A stretch of DNA of 48,630 nt, taken from positions 1 to 48,630 of the IMG/VR virus record IMGVR_UViG_3300030104_006971. One strand, 5' to 3'. The position numbers and the translations under genes were made by a program. Source of the stretch: a virus. Of this stretch, positions 6,149-33,339 are shown piece by piece (the first letter of the stretch is position 1; every line of letters starts with the position of its first letter). Under the pieces are notes generated by a model. That model saw nothing but the letters and a program-made list of their open reading frames with translations. It had not been told where the DNA came from and made no database searches.

Positions 6149-7076
6149 TATACGTTCCTAAAATATTAAATATTTGTTCCTCTGGTATCTCCAGTATATA
6201 CCGCAAATACTCTACGAGTTCATCTTCCATTGTCATATCTTTGTCAATAACTAGACTTGCTTCTGTATTTCTTTTTACTACTTTTTTATCAAGCAGTTCT
6301 GAGTTTTCAACAGTAGCAAGTTCTTGAATATCTCCTTCTATTTCATAAATAGTATGGTGATATGTTGTTGGTACCATGTCCCCTGCTTTAGTAACTGTTT
6401 TTCTTATCAGTTGAGGCAGAGTAAAAGGCCACCAGTTCCAAGACCAATCTTTTGGATTTATAAGTAAGTATCCAGTCTCTACTTCTTTTCTATGAAATGA
6501 AGTAGTCATAGGACTTCCTGGATAAATAATATTTCTTTGAGTATTACTATGAGCGTGTAAGTCTCCTGCGAATACTACAGGAAAATCTGCAAATCTATCT
6601 AAGTCTACCTCTGGCTTTACATGTGGAGGTATTTCTCCTCGCACATGGGTAAATAGAGGTTTATTAGTATCAAAGTGCTCAATACTGCCTTTTCTATGTA
6701 GGTCTGCGTAAGGTAAAACTCCAAAACCTAAATCTTCATCAACATAGGAAATATCTACGATATTTACAAGAGGATTAATATCTCTTGTCGGTTGCTTTAG
6801 TTGAGAGAAAAAGGTACGATTCTTCCGAGTTGCTTCATGGTTGCCATCAAATATAAGAGTTGGTTTCTTTACATTTCTTACAAAAGAAAAATATAAAGCT
6901 AGTTCCTCCATACTTGGGACACGGTCAAACAGATCGCCACCAATAATATGCATATCACAGGTGGCAGCCTGCTTGTGTACTTGATCAAAAAACTCGTTAT
7001 ATCGCTTTACTGCCCATTCTAGAGGCACATTCTTCTGTCCCAGCTTTATATGCCAGTCGGCAGTAAATAATATCAC
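6117..7076 (-). CDS. SbcD/Mre11-like nuclease (T4 gp47-like)
   Basis: A 319-residue calcineurin-like metallophosphoesterase. Metal-binding motifs appear in order: FTADWHIKLGQ at the N terminus, IIGGDLFDR near residue 45, DGNHEATRKN near residue 78, THVRGEI near residue 143 and AGDLHAHSN near residue 170. It should act as the end-processing exonuclease/endonuclease subunit with the SbcC-like ATPase downstream. The start overlaps the stop of the ssDNA-binding protein gene (ATGA-type coupling), placing it in the core recombination/replication operon. Confidence 0.92.
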   Translation of the reverse strand: MILFTADWHIKLGQKNVPLEWAVKRYNEFFDQVHKQAATCDMHIIGGDLFDRVPSMEELALYFSFVRNVKKPTLIFDGNHEATRKNRTFFSQLKQPTRDINPLVNIVDISYVDEDLGFGVLPYADLHRKGSIEHFDTNKPLFTHVRGEIPPHVKPEVDLDRFADFPVVFAGDLHAHSNTQRNIIYPGSPMTTSFHRKEVETGYLLINPKDWSWNWWPFTLPQLIRKTVTKAGDMVPTTYHHTIYEIEGDIQELATVENSELLDKKVVKRNTEASLVIDKDMTMEDELVEYLRYILEIPEEQIFNILGTYNDYAKTAQLG

Positions 7077-10099: not shown

Positions 10100-10594
10100 T
10101 TATACTTTTCTTCGAGTGTCAGACTTCTTGAACTCGGAATACTCGTAGAGCATCCAAGGTATTCCACTCAGATGTAAAACGCCTGCCCATGAAGTATCAG
10201 CATTAGGAGGGCGCGGTATTTTGAAAGGAAAGTTTACTCCTTTCAGCCATACGACAGAGGCAGAGTTTTTACGCTCTATCTTTCGTATTTTGTAGTACTT
10301 TAGAGATGCTGAGTGAGTCTTCTCATAGAGAAAAGGTATTCCTTCATTATCTATAAAAGCACTTTTTGTATGTTTTATAAGTCCCAAGGTATCAGCAATA
10401 CTGCCCTTGAGCTGTACTAAATCTTTAAAAGGTGTTTGTAATCTTCTCATTCCGAGAGTCTTACCTTTCATGTTTTTATCGTCTACTAACTTCTTTTCTA
10501 TAAACAAAAGCCCGTCCTGCTCCTCCCAGTCGGAACTGGGAAGAACAAAGACAGGAAAGGTTATTTTAGGTAGGGTTTTGTAAGTAATCACCAT
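10100..10594 (-). CDS. Phage protein of unknown function downstream of polA
   Basis: A 164-residue basic protein without motifs I recognise. It overlaps the 3' end of the DNA polymerase gene by 29 bases and precedes phoH by six. Patches such as KYYKIRKIERK suggest nucleic-acid contact but prove nothing. The conserved position in the replication operon suggests an accessory role in DNA metabolism (inference). Confidence 0.6.
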   Translation of the reverse strand: MVITYKTLPKITFPVFVLPSSDWEEQDGLLFIEKKLVDDKNMKGKTLGMRRLQTPFKDLVQLKGSIADTLGLIKHTKSAFIDNEGIPFLYEKTHSASLKYYKIRKIERKNSASVVWLKGVNFPFKIPRPPNADTSWAGVLHLSGIPWMLYEYSEFKKSDTRRKV

Positions 10595-27373: not shown

Positions 27374-27621
27374 TCTTTTTTTCCACTTAAGTCAAACTCC
27401 GTCCCAATTTCGTGCAATTCGCGATGATTTTTTCTGGTTAAGATTCTCTTTGCTTCGTTGATTGCACCTGAAAGAACTGGAAATTTGGTAGAATCATCAG
27501 AAATTATTCGTAGCCTGTAGTAGGTTAGATCACATGAGGACATAGTTTGTATATCTTCATAAATTTCGATTGTAGTATTTCCGTCTACCCACGTTTCACA
27601 TAGTTTTGGTAATCTTCTCAT
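27370..27621 (-). CDS. Small protein of unknown function
   Basis: An 83-residue protein, mixed alpha/beta by appearance (TTIEIYEDIQTMSSCDLTYY, then LRIISDDSTKFPVLSG). It is joined by ATGA overlaps to the SANT-like gene upstream and the micro-protein downstream. No family recognised. Confidence 0.6.
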   Translation of the reverse strand: MRRLPKLCETWVDGNTTIEIYEDIQTMSSCDLTYYRLRIISDDSTKFPVLSGAINEAKRILTRKNHRELHEIGTEFDLSGKKE

Positions 27622-27935
27622 AGCTCTGACCCCGCTGCGACCCCTTTAAGGACCTTTAGTACTTGTTTTGGGGCTTTCTCCAACCCCGCTAAGGTTGCTG
27701 GATTCAGATCGAATATATACGCGAGTTCCTCCACCAGCTCTGTTTTAGTTACTGGACTTTCGCCTGTCTTCGTCTTGTAGACGGAACGGCGATACACTCC
27801 TTCTCTGCTTAGTTTGCCGATTATAGATTTTGGACTTTTATCTAACTCTTTTGCTAATCTGTCCACAGTGATTCGGCTTGGTTTGTTTTTGTACTGCTCG
27901 ACCATATACTCGGTCTGATCATTTGTATAGTTCAA
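27618..27935 (-). CDS. Small SANT/Myb-like helix-turn-helix protein
   Basis: A 105-residue protein with an N-terminal unit (YTNDQTEYMVEQYK ... DRLAKELDKSPKSIIGKLSREGVY) and a C-terminal helical domain (TKTELVEELAYIFDLNPATL). The pattern SPKSIIGKLSREGVYRR is nearly the same as KPKRSIISKLSSLGVYKA in 30055-30393. It is one of six such proteins in the window and probably binds DNA. Confidence 0.78.
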   Translation of the reverse strand: MNYTNDQTEYMVEQYKNKPSRITVDRLAKELDKSPKSIIGKLSREGVYRRSVYKTKTGESPVTKTELVEELAYIFDLNPATLAGLEKAPKQVLKVLKGVAAGSEL

Positions 27936-28547: not shown

Positions 28548-29123
28548 AAAAAAAGCCCTGAGATTTTTACGTCTACAGGGCTTAAATCCAGTCGAGTACT
28601 CACTATTGGTCTCACCTCACGATGAGTAGTGCGGGCTTATTAAGCTCACCAATGACTCCGTTGATCTATAGTCGATTTCAGCTCTTAGGCGTTCGGCTAC
28701 TATAGACGACTGTTCTCCTTTGGTTAAAGTGAATGGAGCACCTCCTGCTTTCCATTCGCAATCGACTCACCAGGTGTATACTGTCGATTCCCTGGAGTTG
28801 CATCGTGGGGTAGAAATACAACTCTGTAATTACACACAAACATAGGAATTAATACCAATTATGTGTGAAGCCCTTATCGACGTGCTTAGGCGGCACTGGT
28901 ACTTTTATCGAAACCTCCCAGTTGCAGGGAACTATAACGCCACACTTACAGTTGCGGATCACTGGGACGCGCACCTAGGGTTGCGTCTCACGAGAATGGT
29001 ACTATTCAGTACGCCTATATCCCGCCCTAAATAAAGAAGGGCTGCACCGGAGATTCTGTTTCAGTGCGATCTTTACTGCCTTATCCCGTAATGGTCGAGT
29101 CTCTGGCTTCCCTTTAATTTTGA
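28548..29123 (-). ncRNA. Large (about 575 nt) structured non-coding RNA of unknown class
   Basis: This stretch has its own promoter, its own terminator and no reading frame of note. Visible helices in transcript order include GCACTG/CGGTGC, GCCCT/AGGGC, GTACT-GAAT-AGTAC, GACGC/GCGTC, GTGC-CGCCTAA-GCAC, GAGTTG/CAACTC, GAATGGA/TCCATTC (seven perfect pairs), TCTATAGT/ACTATAGA and CTCA-TCG-TGAG. At 28760-28796, CCAGG, AATCGAC, CCTGG and GTCGATT occur in that order, which is an H-type pseudoknot. The loop sequence CGCCTAA occurs twice. Size, ornate folding, phage location and nearby tmRNA recall GOLLD- or ROOL-type RNAs, but I cannot match it to either by eye. tRNA, RNase P and intron cores were not found. 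Confidence 0.8.
28549..28583 (-). terminator. Intrinsic terminator of the large RNA
   Basis: AGCCCTG and CAGGGCT pair across a 16-base loop and are followed by TTTTTTT on the transcribed strand. Confidence 0.9.
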
Positions 29124-29129
29124 AGAAGT

Positions 29130-29158
29130 ATTATCTCAAAAAATAACCATTCTGTCAA
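29130..29158 (-). promoter_or_regulatory. Promoter of the large RNA
   Basis: TTGACA at 29158-29153, 17-base spacer, GATAAT at 29135-29130, with AAAAATAGTTC upstream. No start codon follows; transcription should start near 29123. Confidence 0.88.
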
Positions 29159-29644: not shown

Positions 29645-29757
29645 TTCGTTTTATTACTTAGAAAACATACTGGGTAGGTCACTGGGATAGCTCGTGCCAG
29701 GCGTCCGTTTGAGACCTACCATCACTGGAGGTCATACCCAATATGCTTACTAAGTGA
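29645..29757 (-). ncRNA. Structured RNA element downstream of the tmRNA
   Basis: The outer arms ACTTAG/CTAAGT, GCATA/TATGT and TGGGTA/TACCCA close a domain. Inside, GGTAGGTC pairs perfectly with GACCTACC, but this competes with TGGGTA/TACCCA and with an alternative GACCT/AGGTC hairpin. Mutually exclusive pairings suggest either a conformational switch or a processing/3'-end element of the tmRNA transcript. No reading frame and no known motif. Confidence 0.5.
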
Positions 29758-30054
29758 CTCTCCTTTTGATAACAAGGCGAGAGTCTTTCCCCGTCTAGCT
29801 TATGCAGCTAGAGAATAAACGTCGTCGTTGGCGTTTGTGTTTTCCGGAGTGTTGTTAACGTCTTTGATCCGGTACTGTTGACGATTCTCCACTAACCTGA
29901 GATTGCCTGTCGAAACTATGCTCCCCCATCAAAAACACACCAAGGCAAGGTTTAAGGCTCTCATACTTGCGTGGTGGCACACCTTGATGTGCTTTTGGTG
30001 GAGGAGGGGGGAATCGCACCCCCGTCCATTCAACCCTACTTTAGCTTCATCGAA
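29756..30054 (-). ncRNA. ssrA: Circularly permuted (two-piece) tmRNA
   Basis: The acceptor piece comes first: GGACG, then T-arm GGGGG-TGCGATT-CCCCC (30023-30007), acceptor strand CTCCTCC (30006-30000), discriminator A and encoded CCA (29998-29996). After a 67-base linker the coding piece starts with GGGGGAG (29928-29922), which pairs with CTCCTCC and gives the G3-U70 identity pair for alanine tRNA synthetase. CAA-CUC/GGGUUG and UUAG/CUAA join the pieces as helix P2. The tag frame 29832-29803 encodes ANDDVYSLAA with stop TAA in a CTAGCT/AGCTAG hairpin. It rescues stalled ribosomes and tags proteins for proteolysis. The permuted form is typical of alphaproteobacteria. It begins right after the stop of the upstream gene. 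Confidence 0.93.
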
Positions 30055-30393
30055 TTAGTTGCTGAACTGTGCTCGTTGAACTAGTTCTGCCAAGGCTTCT
30101 AGGTCAGCTTTGCTTGCTTTTGCAAGAGAGTCAAGCTGGTTAGTACCAAGAGATGCTTGGATCTGAGCTACAAGCTCTGACTTGCGAATAACTGGCTCAC
30201 CTTGCTTGGTGGTGTTGCGTGGTTGTGCTTTGTACACGCCCAAGCTTGACAGCTTAGAAATAATGCTGCGCTTTGGCTTGCCGAATTCTTCGACAAGAGC
30301 ATCAACGGTAGCAAGGGTAGGTGCATCTTCGTATGCAGCGACCATAGCTTCTACCATTTCGTCCGTGTAGTTCTTTGCAGTTGCGTCTGCCAT
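30055..30393 (-). CDS. Small SANT/Myb-like helix-turn-helix protein
   Basis: A 112-residue protein: helix-turn-helix unit (YTDEMVEAMVAAYEDAP ... ALVEEFGKPKRSIISKLSSLGVY) and C-terminal helical domain (RKSELVAQIQASLGTNQLDSL). The ATG at 30393 has GGGAG upstream and a promoter before it. An in-frame ATG at 30483 would give a 30-residue N-terminal extension from the more distal promoter. It is cotranscribed with the tmRNA, since no promoter or terminator lies between them. Probably a DNA-binding regulator. Confidence 0.8.
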   Translation of the reverse strand: MADATAKNYTDEMVEAMVAAYEDAPTLATVDALVEEFGKPKRSIISKLSSLGVYKAQPRNTTKQGEPVIRKSELVAQIQASLGTNQLDSLAKASKADLEALAELVQRAQFSN

Positions 30394-30429
30394 AATTTTT
30401 TCTCCCTGATTATGTTTGTTTATGCGTAT

Positions 30430-30458
30430 ATTATACAAGCCAAAGGAAACAATGTCAA
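30430..30458 (-). promoter_or_regulatory. Proximal promoter for SANT-like gene and tmRNA
   Basis: TTGACA at 30458-30453, 17-base spacer, TATAAT at 30435-30430. Confidence 0.87.
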
Positions 30459-30525
30459 GAAATTTTTTCACCGAAGGTCTCATAATTTATCTCTAATTTG
30501 TTCCGTTGTTTTTGTTTATGCGTGT

Positions 30526-31613: not shown

Positions 31614-31735
31614 TAGATGCCTCCAGAAGCGATTAGCCAAACCAGCCCACAAAGTAGAATGATGTCGGCGGTGATGGAATAAACCATATAGCAAGCTGCT
31701 AGGATTTTCCAGATTTTAGTGTCGCGCTTTTTCAT
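31613..31735 (-). CDS. 40-residue membrane protein upstream of ppk2
   Basis: Starts MKKRDTKIWKILAACYMVYS and continues with a hydrophobic stretch (ADIILLCGLVWLIASGG). Probably one or two short membrane helices. The stop and the ppk2 start share a base (TAATG) and the start lies inside the end of the exonuclease gene. Function unknown. Confidence 0.6.
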   Translation of the reverse strand: MKKRDTKIWKILAACYMVYSITADIILLCGLVWLIASGGI

Positions 31736-32396
31736 TTACGATTCTCCAAGGTTGAGCGTTGATTATACCATATGGCACAGATTTTTTGCAAGCGTAGCAA
31801 TCGGCCAAAATCTTGGTTTCGATGATTGCATCCGACAATGCGGTGTGGTCTTCGATGAAACCGTGATCGCCAGAGCAAAATCGGTAGGCGTATTCAGCGC
31901 CGGTTCGGATATTGCCAGCCGAAGAAGTCCAGCCGAAATCTCTAGCGATTTGCTTGTATCGCGCTTGTGACAATTTGGTTTCGCAAGCAAATTGCCAAAT
32001 GTCGAGAAGCTGCGGATTTGTAGAGAAAACCGGTCCATCGCCTAACAGTTTGTTTGTCTGTCGCATCACGCGACGATCAAAGCCGAGATTGTAAGCAGCG
32101 ACAACATTCACGCCGAAAGTCGAAACATCCGAGCGCATTTGCTCGACGATCTCAGCCCAAGGCTTGAGCGAGATCGTGCCAGCGTCCAGCATCGGAGCGT
32201 AATGCGTGAATAGTTTTTTCGCATAGAACGCGCCCATCATCTTGCTTGCATCGGTAAAGATTTCGCTAACGAGTGCGTTGTATTGCGTGACAATTTCGCC
32301 GCGACGATTGTGGATCGTGTAGCCTACATCGTAGACGTTGCCCGCCAAGTCGCACGCTTCCGTATCGAGAGTGAGGATGATTTTTTTGTCGATCAT
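31716..32396 (-). CDS. DnaQ-like 3'-5' exonuclease (DEDDh)
   Basis: A 226-residue exonuclease: Exo I LTLDTEACDLAG near residue 10, Exo II AAYNLGFDRRVM near residue 100, Exo III HTALSDAIIE near residue 183 (His plus Asp of DEDDh). Such phage enzymes may proofread, trim RNA or degrade host DNA; the polymerase here already has its own proofreading domain. It belongs to the GC-rich island and lies one base after the HAD gene. Confidence 0.85.
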   Translation of the reverse strand: MIDKKIILTLDTEACDLAGNVYDVGYTIHNRRGEIVTQYNALVSEIFTDASKMMGAFYAKKLFTHYAPMLDAGTISLKPWAEIVEQMRSDVSTFGVNVVAAYNLGFDRRVMRQTNKLLGDGPVFSTNPQLLDIWQFACETKLSQARYKQIARDFGWTSSAGNIRTGAEYAYRFCSGDHGFIEDHTALSDAIIETKILADCYACKKSVPYGIINAQPWRIVNEKARH

Positions 32397-32856: not shown

Positions 32857-33043
32857 AGGTATAACCTCCAATGCCGATGATGTTAAGTAAAATCAGATTG
32901 TAGCATTGTTTGTGCCATGCTTGCAAGCATAGAATTCCCAGCCCAGCGATAGCGCAAGCCTTGCCAAAATCCGTGTCGATGATCGGCGGAGCGATGCAAA
33001 GAAGCACCGCCCCAACCCATCCGCTAAGGTCAACCAAGCTCAT
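32840..33043 (-). CDS. Small membrane protein (two TM)
   Basis: A 67-residue protein with hydrophobic segments at about 8-22 (WVGAVLLCIAPPII) and 28-66 (ACAIAGLGILCLQAW and LILLNIIGIGGYTYALYI). The layout resembles a fragment of transporter-like small proteins such as PnuC relatives, but too short to assign. It overlaps both neighbours. Confidence 0.6.
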   Translation of the reverse strand: MSLVDLSGWVGAVLLCIAPPIIDTDFGKACAIAGLGILCLQAWHKQCYNLILLNIIGIGGYTYALYI

Positions 33044-33339
33044 GATAAATTCATGAGCAGGTTATTGAGAGCTGACGCCTTCGCCAGAGCTAAACCGTCA
33101 AGCGCATCCGCGTCGACGTTGATCGCCTTAGCGATTGCGTCAACGGTATCCGCCTTGCTAGAGCGAACGCGCTTGGGCGCTTTCGACGTAGCGACATAGT
33201 CCAAGCCAAGGTGTTTGGCTTTGGATATGACAGAACGATGCGACAGACCGAAGTCGGCAGCGAGATCCTTGGCAACAGCAAGGTTAAGGGGAGCTGCGGC
33301 TTGCAGCTTGGCGATCATCGCCGGAGTGTAGTTGGACAT
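33040..33339 (-). CDS. Small SANT/Myb-like helix-turn-helix protein (GC-rich island copy)
   Basis: A 99-residue protein: YTPAMIAKLQAAAPLN ... DLAADFGLSHRSVISKAKHLGLDY, then linker and helical C-terminal domain (SKADTVDAIAKAINVDADAL). Same plan as the paralogues at 19025, 27618 and 30055 but with GC-richer codons. Its promoter contains a long perfect inverted repeat, suggesting autoregulation (inference). Confidence 0.78.
   Translation of the reverse strand: MSNYTPAMIAKLQAAAPLNLAVAKDLAADFGLSHRSVISKAKHLGLDYVATSKAPKRVRSSKADTVDAIAKAINVDADALDGLALAKASALNNLLMNLS

Follow-up and report, generated by a model that had tools for sequence, protein, structure and literature searches.

The GOLLD RNA, which we take to be Rfam family RF02032, forms a 14-mer nanocage, and the ROOL RNA, presumably RF03087, an octameric one. 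Both belong to the cage-forming phage RNAs located near tRNA islands, without an established function, and a marine GOLLD example sits downstream of tRNA-Met (PMC12286853). Here, we focus on an RNA encoded in a window of 48,630 bases (the whole stretch of DNA analysed), which comes from an IMG/VR virus record and whose terminase is nearest to T5-like siphovirus terminases. This non-coding RNA of about 576 nt (28548-29123, minus strand) is shown by comparative sequence analysis to represent a previously undescribed family of structured non-coding marine-phage RNAs composed of separable domains, and a search of the open-access literature returned no prior description of it.

With regard to its limits, a sigma-70 type promoter, TTGACA-17-GATAAT with an extended -10 TG, is present on the minus strand at 29130-29158, with a start site at about 29123; read from 29158 to 29130 as TTGACA-17-TGaGATAAT, it gives 11 matches out of 12. 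At the other end, an intrinsic terminator, GCCCTG..CAGGGC-U7, occupies 28584-28548 on the same strand and was recognised from its sequence and from a stem that covaries in homologues. Since both signals are present, as an earlier note on this DNA had claimed, the limits 28548-29123 are correct, and full-length homologues were found in L002, L072 and L099. The same note had seen no reading frame in the RNA, and comparison of six homologous RNAs agreed with this: none of their ORFs is conserved, and thus the mark of a protein-coding gene, an ORF common to the homologues, is absent from these six. Its claim of many strong helices is weak in that form. The minimum free energy of the window RNA is -171 versus -161.8 for shuffled sequences (z -1.79, 1 of 20 shuffles being equally stable), which is unremarkable, and the folding energy of one sequence was dropped as evidence for structure; covariation among homologues, on the other hand, supports structure decisively. 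A repeated loop sequence, CGCCTAA, does exist in two copies in the window, at 28685-28691 and 28886-28892 (TTAGGCG on the plus strand), but it is not repeated in L002, L072, L099 or L004 and is therefore attributed to chance.

A search of Rfam 15 with the window RNA gave no match at gathering score or at E-values up to 10, except for two on the terminator hairpin, which are terminator look-alikes. Similarly, in ten homologue loci searched at E-values up to 1, GOLLD, ROOL and the glutamine riboswitches were not matched. The search proposed in the earlier note, which covered GOLLD, ROOL, OLE and HEARO, thus returned no family, and identities as group I intron, HEARO or OLE were ruled out on the same ground. 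Taken with the covariation, this supports the view of that note that the RNA is structured, of no known class and maybe new.

Homologues were collected using the neighbouring exonuclease gene (31716-32396) as bait, which yielded 66 viral contigs, several of them with the RNA at the equivalent position. The L002 homologue spans the full RNA with 84% identity, L004-L006 match its 3' half, and L017-L024 its 5' part, adjoining tRNA-Trp and a permuted tmRNA. All viral contigs were then scanned with the most conserved stretch, GATAAGGCAGTAAAGAT, and the set was widened by a structure-aware pattern. The homologue records are fragments, mostly from uncultured phages, and the model E-values are rough. 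The 5' domain, hereafter M1, was seen in viral contigs only, mostly adjoining permuted tmRNA and tRNAs. BLAST against 50,697 phage records found no homologue of the RNA, and a 17-mer scan of 84,980 genomes gave only chance matches, the best reaching 29 bits versus at least 45 for true ones. No convincing M1 match was obtained in bacterial and archaeal genomes, and a search with the M1 model of 385 alphaproteobacterial genomes (the class to which G042 belongs) did not find the domain.

M1 is a pseudoknotted domain of 87 nt (29032-29118, minus strand; 85.2 bits with covariance model R1), the most conserved part of the RNA and one overlooked in the earlier note. Its parts are the outer stem (P1), a GCC/GGC helix of three pairs, hairpins P2 and P3, and a three-pair pseudoknot GAG/CUC, in which the segment following GCC pairs with the P3 loop; the core GAUAAGGCAGUAAAGAU is invariant in the window and in most sequences. 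Pairing is kept in 91.5% of cells among 10 sequences versus 27-52% when the partners are slid, and in 92.4% among 45 distinct sequences versus 28-46% in the slid controls. Among the latter 45, compensatory double changes occur at 16 of 20 pairs. The covariation score of 0.58 compares with at most 0.12 for slid partners and was reached by none of 500 shuffles. Even the short helices vary coherently, as GGG/CCC, GAG/CUC, CGG/CCG, AGG/CCU and GCG/CGU in the pseudoknot, and as GCC/GGC, GUC/GAC, GAC/GUC, AAC/GUU, CUC/GAG and AUC/GAU in the core helix. M1 thus displays compensatory change above controls, by which we recognise a new family, and the covariation in homologues named as a check by the earlier note is strong in M1 and in the 3' core. 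In three closely related contigs, a 17-base unit, ACAGTTTTGTACTTGAT, is repeated in tandem three, four or five times within the P2 hairpin (L083 8302-8434, L085 6416-6565 and L110 2398-2564), forming a variable-number repeat within a structured RNA.

The 3' core (28867-28731, minus strand) is composed of hairpins M2 and M3, followed by M4. M2 (28833-28867), defined from the alignment, has a AAUUGGUAUUAAUUCCUAUG internal loop; M3 (28795-28824) has a C-rich loop, UACCCCA, on a stem kept with different sequence in 13 homologues; and M4 (28731-28799; 75.2 bits with covariance model R2) comprises an H-type pseudoknot (about 28760-28796) and then a hairpin with a G-rich loop. Among 13 sequences, pairing is kept in 98.5% of cells versus 40-52% for slid partners, with double changes at 12 of 15 pairs. 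The H-type pseudoknot had been proposed previously at 28760-28796. Its geometry is real and its hairpin covaries strongly, but the second helix, CAGG/CCUG, shows G-C/G-U changes only; being formable in 92% of cells, it is likely, not proven. A pairing of the C-rich loop of M3 with the G-rich loop of M4 is possible from the sequences; formable everywhere yet invariant, it is unproven. The AGGAGG of the M4 loop was also considered as a 16S rRNA decoy and rejected, because relatives have AGGUAGG, AGGCAGG or AGGUUGG instead, and a degenerate pattern search for this loop gave mostly chance matches in coding sequence. Of 43 records, 20 gave an M4 match, those in L017- and L086-type phages being weak, though independent, and M1 is kept with a different body in L050, L058, L059, L087, L094 and L195-L210.

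Exactly one M1 was found by covariance model search in each of 38 virus records, a lower bound on copies per genome as the records are fragments. In 32 of 46 homologues, a sigma-70 promoter lies 38-61 nt upstream of M1, which begins just downstream of it, a few nt from the transcript 5' end; 38 of the 46 have a terminator no more than 1 kb downstream, in most records with no ORF in between. The carriers of M1 are diverse: the 5' end of the long RNA, a short terminated RNA (M1 alone, then terminator, in L077, L095 and L048), the leader of an ORF for a small membrane protein (directly 5' of it in L097, L104, L114 and L216), and the 3' domain of a permuted tmRNA (L004, L005, L006, L126, L127 and L198). 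Since these six tmRNA carriers are closely related, they may go back to a single event; in L004, L005, L006, L126 and L198, five of the six, the long RNA is present but lacks M1. M2 lies upstream of M1 in L073 and L104 and downstream of it in the window, so that the modules can stand in different orders. Outside the conserved modules, the remainder of the RNA is freely inserted, lost and re-ordered among homologues; the RNA ranges in length from about 130 to 800 nt across records, many of which lack entire domains. The ORF that follows M1 in L097, L104 and L114 sits after M4 in L083. Proteins of about 50-65 residues, with one membrane segment and two or three Cys, were noticed after M1 or M4 in L083, L085, L097, L104, L114, L081 and L216. 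The long RNA of L006 contains, at 10415-10489, an inserted tRNA-like gene whose anticodon loop has eight bases (gtta as read by ARAGORN).

The window also encodes a tmRNA, the ribosome-rescue RNA, as a permuted two-piece gene with the tag ANDDVYSLAA (29709-30092, minus strand). This is the only tmRNA found in the window by ARAGORN and Rfam, none lying inside 28548-29123, and its 3' pseudoknot is unlike the M1-type domain present in the tmRNA of relatives. Permuted tmRNA accompanies M1 in 20 of 38 records, many of which are short fragments, and phage two-piece tmRNAs are mostly marine (50 of 53; PMC9004378). At the tmRNA locus of L018 (7020-7213), an apparent decayed tmRNA, with T-arm-like and acceptor-like strands but without CCA or tag, is directly followed by M1, and L083 harbours on one contig two different permuted tmRNA genes (670-847 and 6623-6873) with different tags. 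In the phage Melnitz (L215 1399-1500, MZ577097), a glutamine aptamer is located 3' of the tmRNA and just 5' of a short ORF, and for this reason the riboswitch, published as a control of the tmRNA, more likely controls the short ORF. In other respects, three paralogous small proteins are encoded in the window (27618-27935, 30055-30483 and 33040-33339), two of which match the DNA-binding phrog_1725, the third being similar by eye.

As regards function, we give about an even chance to a reading in which this new family consists of phage-encoded non-coding RNAs acting in trans, with M1 as the partner-binding domain and the body as a scaffold. Host sigma-70 polymerase would initiate at the promoter that the RNA possesses within the tmRNA/tRNA region of the genome in T5-like marine phages, and the long RNA would be a stable scaffold that displays M1 together with the 3' core, making it an RNA of the same general kind as GOLLD and ROOL. 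M1 would bind one partner in trans, for which a protein or the translation machinery is the most likely candidate. We infer action in trans because M1 sits on interchangeable carriers, several of which lack any gene that it could control, and the tmRNA/tRNA setting suggests, as a lead only, a partner in translation. Counted against action in trans are the placements of M1 or M4 just 5' of a small ORF (L097, L104, L114 and L216; L081 and L083), which would also suit cis-regulation. A stronger proposal, advanced tentatively and rather improbable as it stands, is that M1 is a portable domain kept in a single copy per phage and moved among carriers, including tmRNA, to act on a host factor in trans.

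An alternative is that M1 is a metabolite-sensing riboswitch aptamer controlling nearby small ORFs, the copies in long RNAs and tmRNA having been co-opted. The compact pseudoknot with its long invariant unpaired core, the position directly 5' of membrane-protein ORFs bearing a Shine-Dalgarno sequence in L097, L104, L114 and L216, and the Melnitz precedent of an aptamer between tmRNA and short ORF are all in its favour. However, most records have no ORF before the terminator, and no downstream gene can be under the control of an M1 embedded in tmRNA; the glutamine core CGUUC..GAACG and any Rfam match are also lacking. As the tmRNA, the short RNAs and most long RNAs offer no gene to control, we regard a riboswitch as unlikely. 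In L097, L104 and L018, an upstream segment is complementary to the 5' strand of P1 and could act as its alternative partner, in keeping with a riboswitch, but most of the 24 loci examined for such a segment lack it, and a general P1 strand-switch was thus ruled out.

A stability element shielding RNA ends from nucleases would also be consistent with where M1 lies: a few nt from the 5' end of the transcript in 32 of 46 sequences, and elsewhere immediately ahead of a terminator or in the stem that closes the tmRNA. A stabiliser of this general kind ought to recur on several RNAs of one genome, and since M1 is limited to one copy per record in 38 records, this role seems quite improbable. The same location at transcript 5' ends and in the tmRNA 3' domain, with a size of about 87 nt, a pseudoknot, a highly conserved core and mixed gene contexts, recalls self-cleaving ribozymes, in this case one trimming phage RNA ends; yet no Rfam ribozyme was matched, no conserved cleavage junction was found and both P1 strands are constant in length, which makes this very unlikely. 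A GOLLD- or ROOL-like cage, built as a homo-oligomer of the whole RNA, is suggested by the size, phage origin and tRNA/tmRNA neighbourhood of the RNA, and by the tRNA inside the L006 RNA, as in GOLLD linkers (PMC12286853). We nevertheless consider it quite improbable: neither RNA was matched in sequence or structure, and a body varying from about 130 to 800 nt, with missing domains, would hardly be tolerable for a precise cage.

To return to an RNA acting in trans through M1, the separable 87-nt domain is small enough to be made, probed and crystallised alone. Because phages carry it either on an independent RNA or within their tmRNA, the question of its role becomes linked to translation or ribosome rescue, which offers a direct handle for finding the partner. 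If M1 were indeed portable, phage RNAs would follow a principle of domain shuffling, much as proteins do. To our knowledge, few large structured phage RNAs have been described, all without a known function, and the present family joins them with evolutionary support that is unusually strong.

Among described systems, the glutamine riboswitches (RF01739, RF01704) resemble M1 in being a small fold, here an aptamer, that marine phages have near a permuted tmRNA and 5' of a short ORF, and the arrangement in Melnitz resembles that of M1 in L216. However, the topology of M1 differs, no Rfam match was obtained, and the CGUUC..GAACG core is absent from all 46 M1 sequences. Permuted tmRNA (RF04321, RF01850) is a neighbouring gene and has M1 as its 3' domain in six related records, whereas the long RNA has no tRNA-like domain, tag reading frame or match to a tmRNA model. 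The likeness to GOLLD and ROOL drawn in the earlier note holds for size, phage context and tRNA/tmRNA neighbourhood. ROOL is likewise about 600 nt long, phage-borne, near tRNA islands, with several pseudoknots and without a known protein partner, but its model does not match, and the length and domain content of the window family are highly variable. GOLLD is also a large structured phage RNA near tRNAs and can hold a tRNA inside (PMC12286853). It exceeds 800 nt, versus 576 nt for the window RNA, which its model does not match, and its 3' region is universal, whereas here the 3' core is found in 20 of 43 records and it is the 5' domain, M1, that is most widely kept.
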